IMG/VR virus record: IMGVR_UViG_3300025949_000096
Location: 1-22,983 of that record
Source of the DNA: a virus
Reading direction: 5' to 3' (one strand)
DNA length: 22,983 bases
Shown here: one piece after another, positions 7,959-19,622 of the stretch
How the letters are laid out: each line of letters starts with the position of its first letter
Numbering within the stretch: position 1 is the first letter of the stretch
The notes under the pieces: generated by a model
What the model was told of the DNA's origin: nothing
Database searches by the model: none
What the model saw: only the letters and a program-made list of their open reading frames with translations
Position numbers and translations under genes: made by a program

Positions 7959-10355
7959 TCACGCGGCGGCCTTGTTCATGGCGTCGTAGCCCGTGGCGGC
8001 CTGCTGCTGATCGGAGGGGTGCTGCATACTCAATGGCGCGGCGGCGATGCTCGGGTTGCTTCCGAACGTCGGCTGCTGGTTGCCCGGCAACGGCTGGCCC
8101 TGCGGCGGCGGGAACCCTTGACCGCCTGGTGCGCCGCCCATCGGGGCGCCGCCTTGCTTCTGTGCGCTCTGGTTGGCGTACTGGGTCCAGACCTGCTGCG
8201 CCATCGCGATCACCTGCGGGTCCACGTCGTCGCGGTCCAAGATTTCGCGCTCCAGCACGTCCTGCACGATCGCCTCGTTGTCGGTCCACCGCATCGGCGG
8301 TACCGGGAGACTCTGGATAATCGCGTCGGCGATCCGCTGCGCTCGGGCTTCCTTCCGATCGTCCGGCGTGTCGATCGAGTCCGTGAACGCGAACGGCAAC
8401 CGCTGGCGATATTCGCTCGCCGAAATGACTTGCTTCTCGTAGAGCTGATCGAGCAGGTAGAGCTTCAAACTCCGCGGCATCGGCATCAGCGTTTCCGGGT
8501 CGATCTCGACCTTGGAGACGCCATCGAAGTCCTCGGCGGTGATCTGCCGCGCCAAGTCTGACCGAGACGAGCCGACGATGCCGATCGCGCGCGGCATCTT
8601 GAGCATCTCGCGATAGATGGCGAGCTCGATTTCGCCCCACTGACTCATGCCGGTGGCAGCGGCTTGCACCACCGGCGCAAACACGCGCTCAACCTGTTCA
8701 CGCACGGCCAAGATCGCCCGGCCCGACTGATCGCTCGTGAAGCTCCCGCGGGTCGTGTCGTTCCAGCCGGACTTCTGCTCGAACAGCAACCGCTCGGCTT
8801 CGAGCAAGTCTTTCACGTCCGAGCCGATCGAGAAGCCCTGCACTGGCACGAGGGCTTGGCTCGGGTCGGTCATCGGCCCGTTCACTTCCCAGACCGTCGC
8901 GGAGCCGCCGACCAACGTCTCCGTCACCATCGTGCCTTTCCGGGTGACGAACTGGCGATCCGAGTTCCGTCGCACCGAGTCGATCCACTTCGATTTCGTG
9001 GCGTTGATCCGCATCTGGTGCGAGACCCAATCGCTCATGATCGGCGTCGGGTAGAACGCGGGATCGGTCGAGCCATCGGTGATCCGCACCAACGGCACCA
9101 CGCCGTACGGCAACGGTTGCGGCTGGACGACCAAGGCATTCCCCACGGCCACGAGCGTCAAGCCATGCGGCAAGAACTCCGAGCGGTCGCAATGGACGGT
9201 GAAGCGGTCTACCGTGTCTTGCTCGCGGAACAACTCATTGACCCCCGGTGTGCCCAGGGCCAGCCGGTCCATCGCCAACGTCGCCGCGATGTCCGGTCCA
9301 CCACCGCCAGCGGTCAACTGGCTCATCGTCGCTTTGTCCACGACCTTGGGGCCGTAGATCGCGACGGCTTCGGCGGTCGGCATTGTCTCGCGGATGATCC
9401 AGTAATTCGGTTTCCGCGTGGCTGTTGCGTTGGCGCTCACCCGCACCTGTTCGATCCTGAGCACACAGGTCCGCGTGTCGCCCAACGGGGTGTGGCGTCC
9501 GTCGTACTCGGCCCACGGGCCATTGTCTGGGTCCCAGTAGCAGTGAAGGAACGAGACGCCATCGGTGCCAGCCCAGTATTCCGCTTCGGCCAGGACGTCG
9601 GCCATCTGCTGCTCGGCGTAGCAGTATTCGAGCGTCTTCTGTTGCGCCTCGGCTTTCTTCTCGGCGTCGATGTCTTCCGAAGTCGGTCGGGTTCTGAAGC
9701 CCGGGATCTGCTCGCGCACGATCTGCACGCGGAGATCGAGGGCCGGCTTGATGACGTTCTCGACGGCGCGCGTCACATCGCGAGGCTTGGGCGGTTCGCG
9801 CCACGGAGCCAGCCCGACCGCGGTGACCCACTGACTGCCGGCGCGGAACAAGCGGTTGCGTTCGACGGTGTGCAGAACCTTCTGCATCCCGGCGCGGTGC
9901 CGGTCCCAGAGGCCGATCGCCCATTGCACCCAATCGTCCTCGTCGGGTGCGCTTTGTTTGAGGAGGGGAAAGTCGGTGCCATACAAGGCCGCGCCGGCCG
10001 CGCGAAGCTGCGCGATCGTCTGCGGGTCTAGGGGAGCCGGTGTCTGATCGGGGATCGTTGCGACGACGGTTCCGGGTTGGCCTTGTACGGCACCGGAGAG
10101 CGGGTCGAGCTGTGACGGGTGATTCCCCGGCGCCATCGGATCGTTGATCGACTGTCCGAGGTCCGCGCCGCCGAGTTCCTGCGTGACGGTCGACGGATCG
10201 CTCGGCAGGTCGTGCGGCTGCATCGGGTCTTGCGCGGACTGTTGGCCCGGCATCGGCTGATCGTCAGGCTGATCACTCTGACCCATAGCCGCCATCGCGC
10301 GCTGGATGATTGGATCGTCTTGCTCGTTCATCGCGGGGCGCGGAAGGGAAGCCAT
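7959..10355 (-). CDS. Portal protein (P22-type size)
   Basis: This 798-residue protein is expected to form the dodecameric ring through which DNA enters and leaves the head. The first about 130 residues are low-complexity Gln/Pro/Asp/Met. The portal core starts near residue 145 (WAIGLWDRHRAGMQKVLHTV) and continues with DVTRAVENVIKPALDLRVQI, AEYWAGTDGVSFLHCYWDPD, YPTPIMSDWVSHQMRINATK and RLLFEQKSGWNDTTRGSFTS. The C-terminal 60 residues are Gly/Gln/Pro-rich, then a short helix. P22 gp1 is 725 residues, a similar size. ATG at 10355 has AGGAC upstream and lies 11 nt from the previous stop; an internal Met at residue 9 is an alternative. The gene is followed by scaffold and capsid, as expected. 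Confidence 0.85.
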   Translation of the reverse strand: MASLPRPAMNEQDDPIIQRAMAAMGQSDQPDDQPMPGQQSAQDPMQPHDLPSDPSTVTQELGGADLGQSINDPMAPGNHPSQLDPLSGAVQGQPGTVVATIPDQTPAPLDPQTIAQLRAAGAALYGTDFPLLKQSAPDEDDWVQWAIGLWDRHRAGMQKVLHTVERNRLFRAGSQWVTAVGLAPWREPPKPRDVTRAVENVIKPALDLRVQIVREQIPGFRTRPTSEDIDAEKKAEAQQKTLEYCYAEQQMADVLAEAEYWAGTDGVSFLHCYWDPDNGPWAEYDGRHTPLGDTRTCVLRIEQVRVSANATATRKPNYWIIRETMPTAEAVAIYGPKVVDKATMSQLTAGGGGPDIAATLAMDRLALGTPGVNELFREQDTVDRFTVHCDRSEFLPHGLTLVAVGNALVVQPQPLPYGVVPLVRITDGSTDPAFYPTPIMSDWVSHQMRINATKSKWIDSVRRNSDRQFVTRKGTMVTETLVGGSATVWEVNGPMTDPSQALVPVQGFSIGSDVKDLLEAERLLFEQKSGWNDTTRGSFTSDQSGRAILAVREQVERVFAPVVQAAATGMSQWGEIELAIYREMLKMPRAIGIVGSSRSDLARQITAEDFDGVSKVEIDPETLMPMPRSLKLYLLDQLYEKQVISASEYRQRLPFAFTDSIDTPDDRKEARAQRIADAIIQSLPVPPMRWTDNEAIVQDVLEREILDRDDVDPQVIAMAQQVWTQYANQSAQKQGGAPMGGAPGGQGFPPPQGQPLPGNQQPTFGSNPSIAAAPLSMQHPSDQQQAATGYDAMNKAAA

Positions 10356-11795: not shown

Positions 11796-12320
11796 ATGAA
11801 ACCGATGCCATTTCGTGAGCGCTTGGCGATGCTCGCCGGTGCCCAACCGACTGCTTGCTGGTTGTGGGAGGGCGGGCGACGCGGACGCTACGGAAAGACG
11901 AAGTGCGACGGGGCCCAGTGGCTCACGCACCGTCTCGCATACACACTCGTCAAAGGCCCGATACCTGAAGGCCTGCAACTCGACCACCTGTGCCGCACTC
12001 CGCTGTGTTTCAACCCGCTCCACTTGGAGGCGGTGACAGCCAGAGTTAACTCGCTGCGTAGTTCTAGCGTCGCTGCGAAGAATGCTGTGAAGACCCACTG
12101 CAAACGGGGGCACAGTCTGAGCGGTAGAAACCTGTACGTGCATATGCGCGACGGGCACCCTGTCCGGTCGTGCCGCACATGCCGCAAAGACACCTGTCGC
12201 GAATACGACCGCGCCAAGCGCTCGGAACGGCACCTTGAGCCAGCCGTCATGGCCTACCGTCGCGAGTTTAAGCGACAGTGGCGAGCGAAGCGCCGAGCGG
12301 CTGGACTGCCGGTACTGTAG
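11796..12320 (+). CDS. HNH homing-type endonuclease
   Basis: This 174-residue protein is encoded by the only supported plus-strand gene. Residues 21-47 (CWLWEGGRRGRYG then THRLAY) lead into the HNH core LQLDHLCRTPLCFNPLHLEA at about residues 60-79: DH is the first His, the N of FNP is the Asn, and H of PLHLE is the second His. A Cys/His cluster, CKRGH and later CRTCRKDTCREYD, looks like a zinc-binding or DNA-recognition module. The C-terminus is basic. This is the domain order of free-standing phage HNH endonucleases. It faces the surrounding operon, ending 5 nt from the stop of the convergent gene at 12326. The ribosome site is weak. A TTGTTA (11761-11766) and TTAGAT (11783-11788) with 16-nt spacing could be its own promoter, but this is a poor match. 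Confidence 0.88.
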   Translation: MKPMPFRERLAMLAGAQPTACWLWEGGRRGRYGKTKCDGAQWLTHRLAYTLVKGPIPEGLQLDHLCRTPLCFNPLHLEAVTARVNSLRSSSVAAKNAVKTHCKRGHSLSGRNLYVHMRDGHPVRSCRTCRKDTCREYDRAKRSERHLEPAVMAYRREFKRQWRAKRRAAGLPVL

Positions 12321-12325
12321 GCGCA

Positions 12326-13528
12326 TCAGGCTGGGTCCACCGCAACAATCGGCGAGCCCGCCGCCGTCGTCACCGCGAAGGTGAACGCGGTCGTCGTGTC
12401 GTCCTCCTTGTACACGATGCCGGCGACGGTATCGACTTTGTTGCGGAGCACCCGGAATGCGTTCCGCACGGTGCGACCGCCCGAGTCCGTGCCCACGCTC
12501 ATGTCGCGATCGAGCATGGTATCGGCCAGCGATTGCTTCGCCGCCGTCGCGATACTCGCCGAGTCGATGACCCCCGCGTTCATCGTGCCCACCGTGACTG
12601 CGGCGGTCACACTCGCGACCGAGCCGCCGACGTTGCCGGTGACGGAGGCGACGGAGCCTGTCACCGCGCCTTGCACGCTGGCCACGCCCTGGCCGAACGA
12701 GCCCGCCGTCGTGTGACTCGCGCGGGCCGCATCCCACACCGCGGCCTCGACGCTCGTCTTCATCGTCGCGGACAGGTCACCGGCTAATGTCGCGCTCCCC
12801 ACCGTGGCGGGGAACGTCGCCGCCAAGAACCCCGTGGGCTGCGTGTACGTCGCCATGCGCGTGCTCACGGCGGCGTCCAGGTTGTCGAGATTGCCGGCGC
12901 GGGTCGCGGTCACGCGGGTCAGCAACGTCGTGACGCCGCTCGAATCGCTCGGCGCATTCGTCAGCGTCGTCGTGGTCGTCACCAGCGTGACGGTCGAGAT
13001 CGCGCCACCCGCGGAGATGCCGAGGCTCGAGAAATTCGCGGGGAAGGTCTGGGTGAGCGCATAGCCCGTCTTGTCGTTGTTCGTCGTCACCGTCACGCCG
13101 GCAGTCACCGATCCTACCGCTCCGACCACGGCCGGGACGCTCGATACGAAGCCGGTCGCACTGTCCGGGTTGACCGCCGTCAACTGCACTTCGATCGGCA
13201 GCGGCGCCATGTTCGTCGCGCCCTTGAGCAAGAACGCGCACGACTTCGCGCCCGACGCCAACGCCGCGTTCGGGGGACAGAACTGATACCAGCCCGGCAT
13301 GTTCGTGGCATCGATCTCTTTGAACCCGCTCGACGTGAACGTGCCCACGGTCATCGTCACAAGCGTGATCGCCGTGGCGGTGGTATCCGTGTCGCGGTGG
13401 TAGTAGGCGGTGAGGCCTGCCGAGGCGTTGGTCAGTCCCGTGAGTCCCGCGCCAGTCGCCGAACTCGCGTCGGCAATGAAGACTTGCCAGATCTCGGAGG
13501 TGGCGCCTGCGAGTTTCTGGAGCTTCAT
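12326..13528 (-). CDS. Probable tail/adhesion structural protein
   Basis: This 400-residue protein begins MKLQKLAGATSEIWQVFIAD and continues with SATGAGLTGLTNASAGLTAY and YHRDTDTTATAITLVTMTVG. Patterns of this type recur in fibre or tail-associated proteins of many phages. Residues 65-120 (GFKEIDATNMPGWYQFCPPN; GAKSCAFLLKGATNMAPLPI) form a likely globular beta domain. The middle is Thr/Ser/Val repeat, and a GSVASVT unit is repeated around 295-320, suggesting a fibrous or beta-helical stalk. A segment VEAAVWDAARASHTTAGSFG precedes it. The C-terminus is globular. ATG at 13528 overlaps the preceding gene TGA (ATGA). A virion surface or receptor-binding role is inferred. Confidence 0.7.
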   Translation of the reverse strand: MKLQKLAGATSEIWQVFIADASSATGAGLTGLTNASAGLTAYYHRDTDTTATAITLVTMTVGTFTSSGFKEIDATNMPGWYQFCPPNAALASGAKSCAFLLKGATNMAPLPIEVQLTAVNPDSATGFVSSVPAVVGAVGSVTAGVTVTTNNDKTGYALTQTFPANFSSLGISAGGAISTVTLVTTTTTLTNAPSDSSGVTTLLTRVTATRAGNLDNLDAAVSTRMATYTQPTGFLAATFPATVGSATLAGDLSATMKTSVEAAVWDAARASHTTAGSFGQGVASVQGAVTGSVASVTGNVGGSVASVTAAVTVGTMNAGVIDSASIATAAKQSLADTMLDRDMSVGTDSGGRTVRNAFRVLRNKVDTVAGIVYKEDDTTTAFTFAVTTAAGSPIVAVDPA

Positions 13529-14325
13529 GCGGCCATCCGTCTCGGCACATACAAGCCAATGTCAGGACGCCGAGTGAACTCTAGCGATGGATTGAACTGC
13601 TTCGGCCCCGCGATCGAGGCGCCGTTCAAGCTCGGGTTCTGGAAGAACGTCCGACCGCCGCCACCGCCGCCAGCCGCCGGCATCAGCGACCCCGCGATCT
13701 GGCCCCACGGATCGCCCGACGGCGTCGTGTTCCAGGACATCACTTGGGTCGCACCCGTGGCCGCTTCGTCCGAGCCCGCCCCGTTCAGCGTGCCGTTCCA
13801 CTGATGCCAGATCTTCGTCTGGCCCGCCGCCGGGGTCCGATCGTCCACGTTCGTGATCGCGACCATTGCATCGATCACCCGATCCCCCGACGCCGTATTG
13901 ACGGTGATCGAGGGAACCGTCGGGCCGGTGCTGTTCGCGGTCTGCGCGGCGTTCCGCCAGACGGTAGTTTGATCGACCCCGGCCAAGGCGATACTGCCGC
14001 CCATGCAGATCGCCATCGACCCCGAGAAGGTGACGGTGATGAGCTTGGAGGCGCCGGCCGCTGGGCTGACGAGATGCCACAACTCGGCTTGCTCGTTCGC
14101 GAAGGCGGCCGCCGGTTCGATGATGCCGAACAACGTCAGCGCTTGGTTCGCTCCGGCAACGTCCCACTTGACGCTCACCGAGTTGCCGCTGATCCCCGCG
14201 TGCACGACCTGCACGACGAGGATGCCATTCGTCATGGCGTCGACCGTGCGCGTCCACGTAAAGGACGTGACCGACGTGGCGACTGTGCCGCCCTCTCGAC
14301 AGTGCGTGGGCTCGGTGATCGCCAT
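13525..14325 (-). CDS. Beta-sandwich virion/adhesion-like protein
   Basis: This protein has 266 residues. Residues about 15-155 have the repeated pattern VTSFTWTRTVDAMTNGILVV, ELWHLVSPAAGASKLITVTF and ALAGVDQTTVWRNAAQTANS. The 'lW.L..P.aG...ItVtfsGs......l.GVDQtt' signature is seen in many secreted or surface beta-sandwich domains of bacteria. A Gly run (GGGGGG) near residue 220 links to a short C-terminal tail with RTFFQNPSLNGASIAGPKQF and DIGLYVPRRMAA. There is no signal peptide. ATG at 14325 has only a modest ribosome site. With its neighbours it forms a group of surface-type proteins between terminase and portal, probably part of the virion or host recognition. Confidence 0.65.
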   Translation of the reverse strand: MAITEPTHCREGGTVATSVTSFTWTRTVDAMTNGILVVQVVHAGISGNSVSVKWDVAGANQALTLFGIIEPAAAFANEQAELWHLVSPAAGASKLITVTFSGSMAICMGGSIALAGVDQTTVWRNAAQTANSTGPTVPSITVNTASGDRVIDAMVAITNVDDRTPAAGQTKIWHQWNGTLNGAGSDEAATGATQVMSWNTTPSGDPWGQIAGSLMPAAGGGGGGRTFFQNPSLNGASIAGPKQFNPSLEFTRRPDIGLYVPRRMAA

Positions 14326-14339
14326 CGGCCGCTACCGCC

Positions 14340-15494
14340 TCAGTCCCGCCAGAGGGCGAGATGGTCAATGTCAATCGCGAACGGCCAGAGCCGCGTCGCC
14401 GAGACATTGCCGAACGAGAGCGAGAACGTGTGCTGCCGCACGAACATCGCGTTCAAGTCCTGCGCGTTGCACCAGATCGCCGGGAAGTGCGCCTGCATCG
14501 TCATCGGCAGGGCGGATCGGCCCGTCGCCGCGTCGCCGACCGCGCCGGGCACGGGCACGCCGCAGTCGCTCGCGCGGACCGAGAGGATGAGCGTGCCGTC
14601 GACCCACATTTGCGCGACACCGTCGGTCGCCGTCGAACTCGAGCGCGTCACATAGCGATAGGTCGCGCGGTGCCACTGGCCTTGGCCCTGATAGGCGAAC
14701 GGCGGCCGCACCTGGCCCGCGTTGCACTGGGTCGTGCCGCCACCATTGCCGTAGAACGTCCAGATGGTCCCGCCATTCACCGGCGGCCCTTGAGGGACGT
14801 TGTCGTAGCAAGTTTGGTATTGCGTGTTGAACTGGGCGCGGTCGGTCTGATCCCAGAGCTCGAGCCACTTCACTTGGAGGATGTGCGTGCCGTCATCGAG
14901 CGTGAAGCCGCCGCCCGGCGTGATGCGGAAGTCGTAGCTCAGGTAGAGCGTGTGGCCTGGCAGCGAGTTGAGGGTGTCGGCGAGCCGGCGATTCCACGAG
15001 TGCCCTTCCTGGCCGGCGGCGTTCGCGATCCCGTCGTAGACGAGATGCAACGCGCGGCCGCTCCCGTCGGAGCCCGTCGTGAGTTGACAGGCGCCTTGCG
15101 GATTCGTGGAGACGTCCTGCGTCGTCGAGCTGTTGGTGCACCGCCAGCCCTGTGCTTCGGCGTCCGCGAACGAGGTGTAATTCATGTCGTCGCGCACGAG
15201 CAGCGTCTGGTGCGTCGCATCGAACACGGGCTCGGCGTGCGGATCGGTCGGGGCGAGCACCGGCGTTGGCGCCGGCGCGGTGGTCGCAATGCGCACCGTG
15301 TCGTGCACGATCTGGGTGACCGTGACCGTCTTCACCACCGTCACCGTATCGTGCACGGCGAGCGTATCGACGGGCAGCGTGCAGGTCACGACCCGGCCAC
15401 TCACCGTGCAGGTGGCCGTCTGGCCGGTGAGCGGGGTCGTGGCGGCGAGAACCAATCCGCCGAGGATACCGAGCAACGTCAGTGTCCGTTTCAT
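14340..15494 (-). CDS. Secreted concanavalin A-like lectin / polysaccharide-active protein
   Basis: This protein has 384 residues from ATG 15494; the frame extends upstream to 15620 but that part is a shadow of the neighbour. Residues 1-27 are a clear Sec-type signal peptide: MKRTLTL, hydrophobic LGILGGLVLAAT, then PLTGQTA. Next is a short beta or coiled repeat (DTLAVHDTVTVVKTVTVTQI, VHDTVRI) and a Pro/Thr linker (72-90). Residues 95-384 look like a jelly-roll domain: LYLSYDFRITPGGGFTLDDG (183-202), HILQVKWLELWD, QWHRATYRYV, DGVAQMWVDGTLILSV (291-306) and a terminal FAIDIDHLALWRD. This fits concanavalin A-like lectins and polysaccharide lyases of similar fold. Nine Cys after the signal could form disulphides, consistent with export. 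Catalytic residues cannot be assigned. It may be virion-bound or secreted to act on host glycans. Confidence 0.7.
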   Translation of the reverse strand: MKRTLTLLGILGGLVLAATTPLTGQTATCTVSGRVVTCTLPVDTLAVHDTVTVVKTVTVTQIVHDTVRIATTAPAPTPVLAPTDPHAEPVFDATHQTLLVRDDMNYTSFADAEAQGWRCTNSSTTQDVSTNPQGACQLTTGSDGSGRALHLVYDGIANAAGQEGHSWNRRLADTLNSLPGHTLYLSYDFRITPGGGFTLDDGTHILQVKWLELWDQTDRAQFNTQYQTCYDNVPQGPPVNGGTIWTFYGNGGGTTQCNAGQVRPPFAYQGQGQWHRATYRYVTRSSSTATDGVAQMWVDGTLILSVRASDCGVPVPGAVGDAATGRSALPMTMQAHFPAIWCNAQDLNAMFVRQHTFSLSFGNVSATRLWPFAIDIDHLALWRD

Positions 15495-15513
15495 TGGTCG
15501 TGGGATGAGTGCG

Positions 15514-15852
15514 CTAGCGGTGGAACTGCCCGCGGTGCGTGTGCGGGTGGTGGGCGTCGTGGAACGTGAAGGTCCCGGGATGCGTGCCGTCGCGGAGGCT
15601 TTCCCAGACCACCAAGGCATGATCGCCGTTCTCGCCGCGGTGGACCGTGGTTGTCTGGCCCTGGTGCTCTCGAGTGATCATGAACCGGTGCGGAGAAGCG
15701 TTGAGCGCATCGACGGCGCGACGGATCAACTCAGGCGAGATAGGCAACGTGTCGTCGGTCTTGGCCCACGCGCTCGGCGGCACATCCCACGGCTTCGTCT
15801 CGCCTCTCGTGAGACGGAATCGCGCCAGCAACGTCTTCACCTGCTTCAGCAC
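15514..15852 (-). CDS. Hypothetical protein with His-rich tail
   Basis: This gene encodes 112 residues starting at GTG 15852, overlapping the stop of the upstream gene by a few bases. The N-terminus is basic (MLKQVKTLLARFRLTRGET). The middle contains PISPELIRRAVDALNASPHR and FMITREHQGQTTTVHRGENG, followed by ALVVWESLRDG. The C-terminus is strikingly His-rich (FTFHDAHHPHTHRGQFHR), which could bind metal. I recognise no family. The spacing of 19 nt to the signal-peptide gene suggests joint transcription. Confidence 0.6.
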   Translation of the reverse strand: MLKQVKTLLARFRLTRGETKPWDVPPSAWAKTDDTLPISPELIRRAVDALNASPHRFMITREHQGQTTTVHRGENGDHALVVWESLRDGTHPGTFTFHDAHHPHTHRGQFHR

Positions 15853-16112
15853 GGCGCGCCGCCCTGCGAGCCCTTCGGCGTCGAGCCTGCACTACCCTTG
15901 CGCTGAAAGGGAACGCCCCGCTTCGCTGACTTCGCGGGCGGGGCGTTGGTGGTGCTGGTGGTGCTGGTCTGGTTCGATTGAGCGGGCTTGTTCGGCGCTT
16001 GGCTCGTGTCGGTGGCCTCAGGGAATCGTCGGCGGTGGTTGAACGCCTTGCTTTTCCCCTGCTGCATCCGCTGCGCGAAACTCTCGCCGGTCTCTGGCTT
16101 GTTCCCGTGCAT
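15846..16112 (-). CDS. Small Ser/Thr/Lys-rich hypothetical protein
   Basis: The 88-residue product starts at ATG 16112, which has the best ribosome site in the window, AGGAGG seven bases upstream. The frame stays open far upstream, but that part overlaps three better-supported genes and is not coding. The protein begins MHGNKPETGESFAQRMQQGK, has a basic stretch (KAFNHRRRFPEATD) and then a low-complexity Thr/Ser/Asn/Pro linker (NQTSTTSTTNAPPAKSAKRG). It ends in a basic Gly/Ser tail. It is probably intrinsically disordered and may bind nucleic acid. No function is recognised. Confidence 0.7.
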   Translation of the reverse strand: MHGNKPETGESFAQRMQQGKSKAFNHRRRFPEATDTSQAPNKPAQSNQTSTTSTTNAPPAKSAKRGVPFQRKGSAGSTPKGSQGGAPC

Positions 16113-16120
16113 AGTGCCTC

Positions 16121-16474
16121 CTAGTTCACCCTCCGCAAATGGCGCGGTGCGTTCACGACCGCGCGGTGCTCGGCGTCCACTCGCAGCCGCCCTTCGAGCT
16201 TGCCCGACTGCCGACTCTGGAGCGTCGCCTTGGCGTACTTCGGGAAGATCATCTGGACGTAGCTGTAGACCCGTTCCGCCAGCTCGTTGGCTTCGCTGTC
16301 CGGCATCCGCTCCATCTTGAGCGCCATCGCCACGAGCATCGTTGGATCGTCGAGCAAGTCGGGATCGCCGACGCTCGACAGGTGGTCCAGCGTCTCGCGC
16401 AACGCCTCTGGCGAGGAATAGGGCAGGGGCGCGTTGGCGTACTGCGCGACGCGATTCGTCATTCCTTTTTCCAT
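16121..16474 (-). CDS. Hypothetical protein downstream of terminase
   Basis: This gene encodes 117 residues from ATG 16474, which has AAAGG six bases upstream. A second in-frame ATG at 16462 overlaps the upstream TGA (ATGA) and is an alternative start. The sequence is mostly helical: SPEALRETLDHLSSVGDPDL, TMLVAMALKMERMPDSEANE and ERVYSYVQMIFPKYAKATLQ. The C-terminus is basic (GRLRVDAEHRAVVNAPRHLR). It is not a membrane protein. I do not recognise the family. Its place between terminase and the following small genes suggests a packaging or head accessory role, but this is only context. Confidence 0.65.
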   Translation of the reverse strand: MEKGMTNRVAQYANAPLPYSSPEALRETLDHLSSVGDPDLLDDPTMLVAMALKMERMPDSEANELAERVYSYVQMIFPKYAKATLQSRQSGKLEGRLRVDAEHRAVVNAPRHLRRVN

Positions 16475-16626
16475 GCCTCGCCTTTCTTATCCTCAACACG
16501 CTGCTCATTGAGGTAAGCGACCAACTCTTCGGCAGTCTCGATGCCGAGATAGTTGTAAATCGCGTAGGCGATCTTGATAGCTTCAGTCGGGTCGCTATCC
16601 CACGGGCGCTCATTACTAGAAGCCAT
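16459..16626 (-). CDS. 55-residue hypothetical protein
   Basis: A short gene runs from ATG 16626 to TGA 16459-16461. It overlaps the end of the large terminase gene by 11 nt and the start of the following gene by 16 nt. GGAGAAC lies eight bases before the ATG. The product begins MASSNERPWDSDPTEAIKIA, continues as helix (YAIYNYLGIETAEELVAYLN) and ends in a charged tail (EDKKGEAWKKE). Overlap on both sides, a good ribosome site and a sensible composition support it. No function is recognised. Confidence 0.65.
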   Translation of the reverse strand: MASSNERPWDSDPTEAIKIAYAIYNYLGIETAEELVAYLNEQRVEDKKGEAWKKE

Positions 16627-18061
16627 ACGACAGTTCTCCGATCGGCTCGGGGTTCGCGTCCGTGTTCTCGTCGTACGGCTCGAAGGTCCGCATATCCTGC
16701 CCGTGGTGCCACGGATCGACGTGCTTGGCCGGCTCCGTCGCCATCGGGACCTGTGTTGCCAGTCCGTAGCGCAGCATGTCTGCGCCGTCGTCCCCGCCGA
16801 GGCCGTCCGCGTTCGCGTCCACCTTGAGCGGCTTGTTCACGTCGTTCGGGTCCGGCAGGATCTCCGCGAGCTGCGACAGCACCCGGCGATTGCCCGGCGT
16901 GTCAACGAAGTAGACGCCGGCTTCCCCATCCCGAATGGCCAGCGCGCGCCTGACCGCTCGCCCGCCGTTCACCTTGTCGTTGTCGGCCAGGTCGAACCAG
17001 AGCCCGCACTGGCCATAGACATCCTGGGCCGAGATGCCGGGGGCGCCGTGGTGCGTCACGCGGTGCTTGATGTCATGCCCGCCAACCCCAGCGCGAACAC
17101 GGCCGGTGAGGCCGGTGTCGGTGATCAGCCGGTGCATGTCGCGGGCGATCTCGTCGTCCTGCGCGCGGCGAATCCACGTCGAGTCGAGCAGGTAGATCAC
17201 GCCCTGCGTGTCCTTGGCGAACAGCCCCGTGACGGCCCAGTGGGCATAGCCCCAGTCATGCGCCAGCCAGTACTCCCAATGCAGCGGGAGTTGATCCGGG
17301 AGTTTGGACCTGGGAATGCGGTGTACGTCGAGGTCGATCTGGTAGTACCGGCCGCCGAGCACGCCCAACGCGGCGTCAAGCTCCTGCGCCGCGATCGGGG
17401 AGTCTGCTGGATACTCCCGATAGAGCGCGTCGATCTCCGCTCGCGGAATGCGCGGGTTGTCTCTCGTCGTGTTGTGGAACGTCTGCCAGTCCGCCCCGAG
17501 CTCATGCCGGTCCGCACGTTCGCAGAGCAGGTTGAAGTAGCTCGGGATGCGCTTGGCCGGGTTGCCGTCGTGCCCCGAATTGGTCGTCGAGCCGAAGAAC
17601 GCCCAGCCCTCGCGATCAGCCAGCGCCGGCCGAATGACCGCGTTCCAGGCGTACTCCAGATCGAAGTAGGCGCCCTCGTCGAGCAGCGCGCCGTCCAGCT
17701 TCCGACCGCGGGCCGCGTCGATGTTCTCGGCCGAGAGCAACTGGAGCGAGCCCAAGCCGTCGATACTGACGATGCGCTCCGACTCGGAGACGTTCACCCG
17801 TTCGACGCCGGCAAACCTGGGTCGGATTTCCTCACGCCAGATCGCTTGGCTCTGCTTGTAGTCCGGGGCGAACCACACCACATCGCCGCCTTGCAGCACG
17901 CCCTTCCGTGCCCGTTTGGGGCCGTGCCCCGCGAATCCGGCCAGGAGCTCGGCGCGGCTCTTCCCGGTGCGTCTCCCGGCCCGCCAGAGCTTGAAGCGGG
18001 CGCCGTGGTTCAACACCTTGGCCTGGTGCGCCAAGGGCTTGGGGAGCTGGATTTCCGGCAT
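16616..18061 (-). CDS. terL: Terminase large subunit (ATPase-nuclease)
   Basis: This 481-residue protein is the motor and nuclease that packages DNA through the portal. Walker A is RAGRRTGKSR (27-36), and Walker B plus catalytic Glu is LDGALLDE (122-129). A motif III-like FFGSTTNSGHDG follows (155-166). The RNase H-like nuclease domain has HDWGYAH with D269 and a late acidic cluster DGLGGDDGADML (419-430); an intermediate VGGHDIKH lies at 326-333. Length and order are normal for the family. The start at 18061 follows the small subunit stop by one base, so the two are coupled. The fold class is that of P22-like or other headful terminases, but the packaging mode cannot be decided from this. 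Confidence 0.92.
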   Translation of the reverse strand: MPEIQLPKPLAHQAKVLNHGARFKLWRAGRRTGKSRAELLAGFAGHGPKRARKGVLQGGDVVWFAPDYKQSQAIWREEIRPRFAGVERVNVSESERIVSIDGLGSLQLLSAENIDAARGRKLDGALLDEGAYFDLEYAWNAVIRPALADREGWAFFGSTTNSGHDGNPAKRIPSYFNLLCERADRHELGADWQTFHNTTRDNPRIPRAEIDALYREYPADSPIAAQELDAALGVLGGRYYQIDLDVHRIPRSKLPDQLPLHWEYWLAHDWGYAHWAVTGLFAKDTQGVIYLLDSTWIRRAQDDEIARDMHRLITDTGLTGRVRAGVGGHDIKHRVTHHGAPGISAQDVYGQCGLWFDLADNDKVNGGRAVRRALAIRDGEAGVYFVDTPGNRRVLSQLAEILPDPNDVNKPLKVDANADGLGGDDGADMLRYGLATQVPMATEPAKHVDPWHHGQDMRTFEPYDENTDANPEPIGELSYGF

Positions 18062-18062
18062 G

Positions 18063-18515
18063 TTAGTGTGTCACGCCCTCGTCCACGAACCGCACCGACA
18101 GCGGCTCGCCGTTCGCCCCGGTCACCTCATGCCGATCGCGCCACACATCGCTCCGACGGTTCTTGAGCCAGAAGATCGCCGCCGTCGAATCGGGCGGATA
18201 CCGTTCGATGTACGGCACCTGCTCGACTTCCGAGCCCTGGTTGGCGCCCTTCGAGACCGTGAGGATCTTGACCGCCCGGTGCGAATAGCCAAGTGCACGG
18301 CGGTAGAGGCTGTGGGCCACATTGGCGTCAGCTTCCTGCTTGCCGCGCGTTAGGGCCCGAAGAAACTCAGGGTGCTTCTTCTTCCACGAGAGGATCGTGC
18401 GGTCTGTAACGTGAAAGAAATCAGCGAGTTGCACGTCAGTCGCGCCTAACAGGCAGAGCTTCTGGGCTTGTTCGGCGTACTCGGGCTTGTAGTTGCTCGG
18501 TCTGCCGCCAGCCAC
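18063..18515 (-). CDS. terS: Terminase small subunit
   Basis: This gene encodes 150 residues starting at GTG 18515, with GAAGGA upstream. The N-terminus MAGGRPSNYKPEYAEQAQKL leads into a helix-turn-helix (CLLGATDVQLADFFHVTDRT, ILSWKKKHPEFLRAL). A helical oligomerisation part (ADANVAHSLYRRALGYSH) follows, and the C-terminus (DSTAAIFWLKNRRSDVWRDR) is likely to contact the large subunit. This arrangement is typical of phage small terminases that recognise the packaging site and regulate the large subunit. It sits directly before terL with a one-base gap, as expected. Confidence 0.88.
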   Translation of the reverse strand: MAGGRPSNYKPEYAEQAQKLCLLGATDVQLADFFHVTDRTILSWKKKHPEFLRALTRGKQEADANVAHSLYRRALGYSHRAVKILTVSKGANQGSEVEQVPYIERYPPDSTAAIFWLKNRRSDVWRDRHEVTGANGEPLSVRFVDEGVTH

Positions 18516-18516
18516 G

Positions 18517-18891
18517 CTACTGCGCGTCCTTCAATGCGAGCATCCGATGGAGACCGAAGGCACCGCGCCGTTGTGAGCGAGCGATGGCACGGGCGCGCTT
18601 CCTATCCTTGGCGCGCGAGGCGCTGCGGGCGTGTTCCTTCCGCTTGCGCCACTCGACTTGCTCGACCGAGACCGGGAGTGTCCGGTCCACCTGTCGCGAC
18701 TTCTGCTCCACATGCACGTCACCCATGAGGTGGACGATCGGGGGGCGGGCGAGTTGTGGCAGGACGGCGCGGCGACAATGCTCCCGGTGGCAGAGCCCAA
18801 GGCTCAGCTCGCAATCCGGGCAAATGTCGGGCAGGAGAACGGCGGGGAGGGACAGGGCGCGGCGGGGTGAGGAGGGACGTGCGAGACCCAC
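18517..18891 (-). CDS. Small Cys-containing basic hypothetical protein
   Basis: This gene encodes up to 124 residues from a GTG at 18891; the exact start is uncertain because no strong ribosome site is seen. Residues 22-39 hold a possible zinc cluster, DICPDCELSLGLCHREHC (C24, C27, C34, C39). The C-terminal third is very basic (WRKRKEHARSASRAKDRKRA). It ends one base before the small terminase start. A plus-strand frame covers the same DNA, but the minus-strand direction and the Cys spacing favour this one. It may be a nucleic-acid-binding protein; no family is recognised. Confidence 0.5.
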   Translation of the reverse strand: MGLARPSSPRRALSLPAVLLPDICPDCELSLGLCHREHCRRAVLPQLARPPIVHLMGDVHVEQKSRQVDRTLPVSVEQVEWRKRKEHARSASRAKDRKRARAIARSQRRGAFGLHRMLALKDAQ

Positions 18892-18963: not shown

Positions 18964-19203
18964 TCATGCTGCTGTGGAGAGGACGCGACGGGTGATCTGC
19001 GATCGGATGTTCCGTGAGCGATCGAGCCGCCAGCGAGCGGCGATGCCGGCGATGTAGGTCTCGACCTGGCGGATGCTGATCCCCAACTCGGAGGCGATCT
19101 GCTTGTTGGTGTAGCAATCGGCGACGTACCGCGCGACTTGGCGTTGCCGAAAGGTGAGGGCGGCGAAGGCGGCCAGGGAGGGAGCAGGGGAGGCGTCGGT
19201 CAC
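18964..19203 (-). CDS. LuxR-type helix-turn-helix mini-regulator
   Basis: This 79-residue protein starts at GTG 19203, which overlaps the resolvase TGA (GTGA); the upstream extension of the frame is a shadow. After an Ala/Pro/Ser leader, residues 16-70 match a LuxR/GerE-type DNA-binding domain: LTFRQRQVARYVADCYTNKQ, IASELGISIRQVETYIAGIA and ARWRLDRSRNIRSQI. There is no receiver, autoinducer or sensor domain, so it is a stand-alone HTH. Similar small HTH proteins in phages often act as late-gene regulators. It is followed by the 72-bp gap with a TTGACA box before the packaging genes, consistent with control of late transcription. A sigma-70 region 4-like protein is a close alternative. Confidence 0.78.
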   Translation of the reverse strand: MTDASPAPSLAAFAALTFRQRQVARYVADCYTNKQIASELGISIRQVETYIAGIAARWRLDRSRNIRSQITRRVLSTAA

Positions 19204-19622
19204 GCCGCTAACTCGTGCAACGTCAACACGATACGATAATTCCCATCCCGCTTCACACGCTGCTCGGGGAACGAGACCCATTCGAGATGCTTCGGGCCGT
19301 CGTCCACGAGATAGCCGCGCGTTCGGAGCCAATCCAAGGGCCACTTGTGCCGGCGCATGGCGTTGTCGTGATCACTCATGTTTGCCAGGTGCATCACCGA
19401 GTCGATGCGCGCGCGGGCGAAGGGTTTGGGTGGCGGCGGCGGAATCATCCCAGCGCCTTGGAGCTGGTCGAGCGCCGAGAGGTACGCTTTCCGCTGCTTG
19501 TCGCGGACCGCCCAGTGGCCGTGGGAGCCGTTGCCGATGTTCCGCGGCATCGGGACCGTGATCACGAGTAGTTGCCCGGTCTGGCGGCCTCCGGGCGCGG
19601 CGTGGGGGGTCGAGGAGGTCAC
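19200..19622 (-). CDS. rusA: RusA-like Holliday junction resolvase
   Basis: This gene encodes 140 residues from GTG 19622, overlapping the upstream TGA (GTGA). The core has ITVPMPRNIGNGSHGHWAVR, then the acidic signature DHDNAMRRHKWPLDWLRTRG with D84, D86 and D97, then YLVDDGP with D107/D108. RusA enzymes use closely spaced Asp residues to cut Holliday junctions, and the D-x-DN...D...DD order is characteristic. The final beta hairpin is GNYRIVLTLHEL. The first 15 residues are Pro/Ser-rich and probably not part of the fold. It likely resolves recombination or replication intermediates before packaging. Confidence 0.82.
   Translation of the reverse strand: MTSSTPHAAPGGRQTGQLLVITVPMPRNIGNGSHGHWAVRDKQRKAYLSALDQLQGAGMIPPPPPKPFARARIDSVMHLANMSDHDNAMRRHKWPLDWLRTRGYLVDDGPKHLEWVSFPEQRVKRDGNYRIVLTLHELAA

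Follow-up and report, generated by a model that had tools for sequence, protein, structure and literature searches.

The minus strand of the viral DNA analysed here carries a gene whose product, P0002, combines an export signal with a carbohydrate-type domain. A Sec signal at its start is supported by sequence comparisons, and the predicted model supports the view that its last 300 residues form a concanavalin-A-like jelly roll of the polysaccharide-active type. From the distribution of its relatives, P0002 looks like the product of a mobile accessory gene of tailed phages and not like a part of the particle. Below, the window refers to the whole of the DNA considered, a 22,983-base virus record of IMG/VR that is classed as linear.

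The gene and its place in the virion block

The gene of P0002 (14340..15494, minus strand) is an open frame of 384 aa with a relative, P0003, in another viral contig. Comparison of the two genes over 380 codons gave pS 0.54 and pN 0.27, indicating purifying selection, and these values support the coding nature of P0002. The open frame given in the initial annotation, which omitted the strand, is therefore real. The plus strand over 14340-15494 is also open, with an Arg-rich shadow frame that was discarded because the minus frame has both a relative and the mark of selection. No clear Shine-Dalgarno sequence was seen upstream of the P0002 ATG.

The neighbouring genes lie on the same strand. The upstream gene, in the same presumed operon (15514..15852, minus strand), ends 19 bases before the start of P0002 and gave only weak family matches in Pfam and PHROG, the best being phrog_9443 at 0.016. 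The downstream gene (13525..14325, minus strand) starts 14 bases past the P0002 stop; it had no family match at E 1 and is of a beta-rich structural type by reading. The second downstream gene (12326..13528, minus strand), with no family match below E 0.1, reads as fibre-like. Farther away are the terminase large subunit (16616..18061, minus strand; phrog_2, 5e-27) and a P22-like portal (7959..10355, minus strand; PF16510, 2.8e-8; phrog_156, 6.8e-24), so that the location first proposed, between terminase and portal, was confirmed. From the tight packing on one strand, we infer that P0002 is transcribed together with virion genes. A scan of 12300-18600 for promoter-like sites found none, with 0.5 expected by chance in shuffles, and for this reason its empty result tells nothing. 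Among the window genes, none was identified as a lysis gene.

Concerning the phage itself, the window terminase had no match in IMG/VR, and the window capsid matched one 5.9-kb contig there, with 77% identity in the best segment. Against GenBank phages, terminase and capsid matched 825 and 8 records, respectively, all below 60% identity. Two other genes of the window resemble genes of a 94-kb phage contig (G002) that is considered below. One of them (11796-12320, plus strand) lies within the virion block on the opposite strand and shares 38% identity over 123 aa with L138:8825-9349; its product is an HNH-type endonuclease by reading of the sequence. The other (19200-19622, minus strand), 35% identical over 125 aa to L139:11549-11920, reads as a RusA-type resolvase.

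Signal, cysteines and jelly-roll domain

P0002 begins with MKRTLTLLGILGGLVLAATTPLTG/QTATC, that is, MKR followed by a hydrophobic stretch. Residues 1-24 (15423..15494, minus strand) are assigned as a Sec-type signal peptide by a home-made rule and by homologues. The rule considers a charged n-region, a hydrophobic core and small residues at the cleavage site, and among the 27 window gene models of at least 80 aa, some of them doubtful, P0002 was the sole one to pass it. Cleavage was placed by the rule after residue 18; a cut after residue 24 (PLTG/Q) is preferred because P0003 and a further relative, L133, have the same words there (PLTA/Q and PLHA/Q, respectively). The claim of a Sec start in the initial annotation thus agrees with the rule and with these homologues. 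P0002 does not look like a lipoprotein, as no Cys follows the cleavage site directly and the first one is residue 29. The PLxAQ style of signal may resemble that of Gemmatimonadota, which is an assumption of ours.

Past the signal there are eight Cys (residues 29, 38, 119, 136, 229, 257, 311 and 342), and not nine as initially counted, all of them kept in P0003. Cys29 and Cys38 (15381..15410, minus strand) are presumed to close a hairpin right past the signal, and strands 27-31 and 34-38 fall in a low-confidence part of the predicted model. This Cys pair is found in the three signal-bearing members P0002, P0003 and L133, and not in the relatives L021 and L115. Since L133 has the two hairpin Cys only and none elsewhere, the argument for disulfides rests on P0002 and P0003. 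Then comes a linker (residues 47-67; 15294..15356, minus strand) with the two copies of VHDTV noted initially (47-51 and 63-67). The repeat is weak evidence by itself, because a repeated 5-mer of some kind occurred in 557 of 20,000 shuffles of the linker; the linker of P0003 has three copies of HDT. Signal, N-terminal Cys pair and linker occur together in P0002, P0003 and L133.

The rest of the protein (residues 88-384; 14343..15233, minus strand) is assigned by profile and predicted fold to a concanavalin-A-like domain of the PL14/PL20/Cip1-like kind. Direct searches of Pfam, PHROGs, NCBIfam and PDB sequences with P0002 gave nothing above chance, and matches to LRRCT_2 (0.058) and to a ribosomal S2 model (0.18) were dismissed as such. 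The alignment revealed a core motif, WH...DGVAQMWVDG (residues 274-300; 14596..14675, minus strand), in which W274, H275, G292, W297, D299 and G300 are invariant in 24 of 24 sequences, 22 of them found by patterns for this same core. P0002 had no match at E 1 to PF14099 (Polysacc_lyase, cut-off 29.9 bits) or to PF21294 (Polysacc_lyase_14, PL14, cut-off 27 bits). L115 and L021 matched PF14099 below its cut-off (24.7 bits, 2.5e-5, and 20.8 bits, 3.9e-4, respectively), and the cut-off of PF21294 was passed only by L109 (38.5) and L097 (27.8) among the 10 motif-sharing proteins scanned. When profile A4, built from the 24 sequences, was compared with the PDB, it matched the PL20 glucuronan lyase 2zzj (1.5e-6) and Cip1 (1.2e-4). 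Profile A3, built from five close members, did not find 2zzj, its best match being 2jd4 at 0.051; the link to PL20 and Cip1 thus rests partly on distant members.

Structure prediction with a 2-sequence alignment yielded a pLDDT of 30. AlphaFold2 with A4 yielded a mean pLDDT of 60.5 and a pTM of 0.60, with some strands of the domain confident, and the predicted model has the concanavalin-A-like jelly roll of the PL20/PL14-type lyase clan. In Foldseek the best match was X122 of Teredinibacter (8q2a, 3.7e-7; TM by query 0.35). The best fold matches in VIA-align, spanning residues about 96-384, were tied: GH131 (Z 12.8), Cip1 (3zyp, 12.7), PL20 (2zzj, 12.4), PL14 (5gmt, 12.2), X122 (8q28, 12.2; 8q2a, 11.9) and the alginate lyase Aly36B (11.8). 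The 15 BFVD matches at E 0.001 or better were mostly uncharacterized or concanavalin-A-like. So, the concanavalin-A-like domain proposed in the initial annotation is supported by profile matches, predicted model and fold searches. Clostridial neurotoxin binding domains and calreticulin were also in the fold list (Z about 11.3-12.0); they were read as a shared lectin fold only. As lectins and toxin binding domains come so close behind, the fold cannot separate an enzyme from a binder. A catalytic set was sought in the 24-sequence alignment and no residue could be assigned to it; in these sequences K209, R190 and R219 are either variable or out of register. D377 is Asp in 19 of the 24 and, as read from alignments, would occupy the place of the calcium-binding Asp206 of Cip1.

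Relatives and signal-like starts around them

A search of IMG/VR gave one relative of P0002, namely P0003 on the 34-kb contig G001, with about 60-64% identity over the full length. Its start is signal-like, and both the Cys pair and a linker with HDT are present. P0002 had no match in GenBank phage records, nor had the motif-sharing proteins L115, L127 and L109, and P0003 had none in plasmid records. When the gene models of the window (28) and of G001 (34, with two genes counted twice and 1.3 of 34.3 kb not covered) were compared by blastp at 1e-3, P0002 and P0003 were the only matching pair, which points to a mobile gene. About 1.7 kb downstream of P0003, G001 encodes a 936-aa protein, tail-spike-like by reading (L002:10912-13722), with a GDSL-type esterase domain that scored just below the cut-off (PF13472, 4.2e-7; 31.1 bits against 32.9).

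More relatives were sought with a degenerate DNA pattern for the WH...DG[VI]...W.DG core, which was tried first on the window and the loci. The scan returned at least 119 stretches; among the matches listed, 84 were without the core in frame and 4 more had short frames only. Among 33 sequences selected for having the core, L115 (E 1.5e-12) and L021 (1.7e-7) scored best, and their alignment extends past the motif. A narrower scan led to L133, a second copy in the contig of L021 (G002). The layout of L133 is that of P0002, with signal, Cys pair, proline-rich linker and domain, while in L021 and L115 signal, Cys pair and linker are all absent. The two paralogues of G002 (L138:6632-7612, without signal, and L139:1508-2620, with signal) are 48.7% identical over 275 aa. 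L021 sits in what reads as the structural block of this contig, and the pair suggests, as far as sequences can tell, a ligand shared by exported and virion forms. In the census described below, loci L021, L115 and L133 were replaced by L138, L140 and L139, respectively. L140:683-5460 (G003) contains, near genes of portal and terminase type by reading, a run of sugar-nucleotide enzyme genes, likewise by reading (epimerase/dehydratase, aminotransferase, PIG-L-like deacetylase and cytidylyltransferase).

As to the genes next to these relatives, L133 is preceded by a protein of 183 aa that contains three hydrophobic segments and by a 95-aa protein without any segment above the hydrophobicity threshold used. 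The latter is 90% identical over 78 aa to a neighbour of L115, from another contig of the same metagenome. P0003 is preceded by a 267-aa protein with a hydrophobic N-terminus and a second segment near the C-terminus. None of these three neighbours matched a lysis family. PADLOC defence models had no match at E 0.1 to P0002, P0003 or L133, and an anti-phage defence role for P0002 was dismissed.

The initial annotation had also suggested a captured host gene. A pattern scan that detects close relatives only, run on one genome per species of 84,980 species, gave 19 stretches, none of them a relative, and the relatives found are in IMG/VR; so, a host origin was not supported.

Signal-like starts were then counted in and around the core-bearing genes. 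Among the matches listed, Sec-like starts were present in 10 of 26 such genes by a strict home-made rule and in 13 of 26 once P0003, L133 and L109, which pass a looser home-made rule, are added. Confined to ATG starts, the looser rule accepted 8 of 25, among them L087, which is more like a membrane segment and was left out of the count. Dropped before the count were L081, L098, L106 and L128 (cut at the locus end), the copies L001, L025 and L077, L112 (another kind of protein), L037, L068, L089 and L117 (frames too short) and three cellular contigs (L135-L137). L047 and its copy L134, both complete, were also dropped; L047 is without signal by the looser rule, and its inclusion would give 13 of 27. 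Same-strand neighbours within 5 kb were signal-like in 22 of 71 cases for the strict-rule genes and in 8 of 114 for the remaining core-bearing genes, the latter including the neighbours of P0003, L133 and L109 because the strict rule missed these three (in P0003 the start lies too far inside the open frame). In a control formed by the genes of 98 loci from the same scans, 10 of 996 were signal-like, a rate lowered by false genes among models made with a simple GC-position score. The near-copies L092 and L108, which are not independent, carry 11 of the 22 signal-like neighbours, and some of the IMG/VR contigs may not be viral. In view of these copies, false control models and possibly non-viral contigs, the apparent enrichment near jelly-roll genes is likely in direction and not trusted in size.

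L092 is a phage, with a P22-like portal (5.8e-120), a capsid (1.6e-77) and a lysozyme. Between its capsid and lysozyme (L092:5830-13077, and in the near-copy L108) there are five Sec-like genes besides the jelly-roll gene, and one of the signal-like genes encodes a glycine-rich domain (PF21722, 2.8e-11). Jelly-roll genes are also surrounded by runs of signal-like genes in L127:373-4834, L111:4010-7774 and L118:617-6909; within the first, L127:3152-4834 reads as a tail fibre with a signal peptide and has no tail family match. L071:8545-11143 contains, beside genes of phage structural type, radical SAM and glycosyltransferase genes by reading. The premise that virion proteins normally lack Sec signals is fair in general and has to be qualified, as signal-like starts are common, within the phage contigs examined here, in or beside genes of this kind. 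The available part of a study of 5 lytic rumen phages gives 0-2 signal peptides per genome (PMC5723332). Should SignalP uphold the enrichment, annotation may have overlooked an exported side of virion operons.

Proposed role and comparison with known systems

Tailed-virion proteins are made and assembled in the cytoplasm, so that an exported glycan-type protein encoded in a virion operon should act elsewhere. If P0002 is exported, it could act in the periplasm, at the cell surface or at the moment of burst. Sec export in a Gram-negative host leaves a protein in the periplasm until lysis, and an action at lysis hence fits better than a change of the capsule or a block to superinfection. The reading that we favour, with confidence somewhat short of even, is that a mobile accessory gene is co-expressed with virion genes, that its product is exported by Sec and acquires disulfides once periplasmic, and that lysis then frees it to bind or cut glycan of the host envelope. 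The signal would take the product to the periplasm, where disulfides, presumed from the eight Cys kept in P0003, would form and the protein would be stored until lysis frees it. The freed protein may then bind or cleave polysaccharide on the surface of the host and of cells nearby, and in this way progeny might not remain stuck to debris, or the matrix around the burst might be opened.

A broader reading, which we consider rather doubtful, is that some tailed phages make one glycan domain in two versions, of which one stays in the cytoplasm for use in the virion and the other is exported by Sec and disulfide-bonded. The exported version would strip or block the same receptor glycan at lysis, shielding progeny from debris and rivals. 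More widely, some phages, L092 for example, would keep runs of exported fibre-like genes in the head-tail block, their products possibly joining virions after lysis. If exported and virion forms do share a ligand, such phages would carry a matched set for receptor binding and receptor clearing. What could matter most here is that one phage contig has both copies and that signal-like genes form runs next to head genes.

Other explanations have to be weighed against release at lysis. P0002 might act at the surface or in superinfection exclusion: exported while infection or lysogeny lasts, it would mask or trim the receptor glycan against further phages. Its signal-like start and glycan-type domain are consistent with this, the presence of a signal-free paralogue in the G002 structural block hints at a common ligand, and lambda Lom is a precedent according to the available text of PMC12309495. 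However, apart from the signal nothing in P0002 looks like a membrane or lipid anchor (the cleavage site lacks a Cys) and, without an outer-membrane route, the protein would stay periplasmic, which makes such a role rather unlikely. It is unlikely that P0002 is a virion adsorption protein, with the hydrophobic N-terminus as an anchor or assembly segment instead of a functional signal and the jelly roll bound to host glycan. Its location among virion genes, the structural or portal neighbourhoods (by reading) of the signal-free L021 and L115 and several BFVD matches annotated as tail or minor tail proteins (E 2.6e-3 and above) agree with that assignment. Nevertheless, signal, cleavage-type site and Cys pair go together in three divergent members, and the versions in virion blocks have none of the three.

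An auxiliary metabolic gene, i.e., a secreted lyase or hydrolase feeding the host from environmental polysaccharide, seems improbable. The best fold matches include several carbohydrate-active enzymes, and the same core with signal-like starts, judged by eye, was found in three bacterial or archaeal genome contigs; against this, the close family turned up no host copy in the scan of 84,980 species, one would hardly expect a feeding gene in a virion operon, and catalysis by P0002 is putative. Finally, a periplasmic lysis helper acting on periplasmic or cell-wall glycan alongside holin and spanins would fit the proteins preceding L133 and P0003, but it is very improbable, as the 95-aa protein has no segment above the hydrophobicity threshold used, the second segment of the 267-aa protein would not be expected in a simple inner-membrane spanin, no lysis family was matched by any of these proteins, nothing comparable lies next to the window copy, and the fold of P0002 is not a known cell-wall lytic fold.

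Among the literature matches listed, there was no report of a protein of the P0002 type, of runs of signal-bearing genes in tailed-phage virion blocks, or of a phage contig with both a signal-bearing and a signal-free copy. To our knowledge, tail-spike and tail-fibre depolymerases and lectin domains, polysaccharide-directed and encoded in virion blocks as presumed for P0002, are virion parts without Sec signals; P0002 differs from such depolymerases in its signal-like start. Cip1 and X122 (3zyp, 8q28, 8q2a) share with P0002 the fold and the C-terminal Asp (by the reading of D377 as Asp206). Cip1 is fungal, X122 belongs to large redox proteins that a bacterium places outside the cell, and the available parts of the corresponding papers report no convincing activity for either (PMC3764139, PMC10916295). 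This is why a cutting activity of P0002 remains a candidate one.

The jelly-roll fold is also common to P0002 and the lyases PL20 (2zzj), PL14 (5gmt, an Aplysia alginate lyase) and vAL-1 (3gne, 3a0n). In the profile match, the Trichoderma glucuronan lyase 2zzj has the WHR...G...W.DG strand pair, as P0002 has, and vAL-1 of Chlorella virus, matched by Foldseek at 9.1e-5, is like P0002 virus-encoded. However, identity to the PL20/PL14 lyases is 11-14% in fold alignments, with no direct sequence match, and signal, Cys pair and VHDTV linker set P0002 apart from them. Lambda Lom, described in the available part of its source as an outer-membrane protein that has a signal and whose gene lies between tail genes (PMC12309495), resembles P0002 in the signal and in the location between virion genes, the export of P0002 being predicted; Lom is an outer-membrane beta barrel, whereas P0002 is a predicted soluble jelly roll. 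So, both an exported phage protein encoded among tail genes (Lom) and a virus-encoded lyase of the same fold (vAL-1) are already known.
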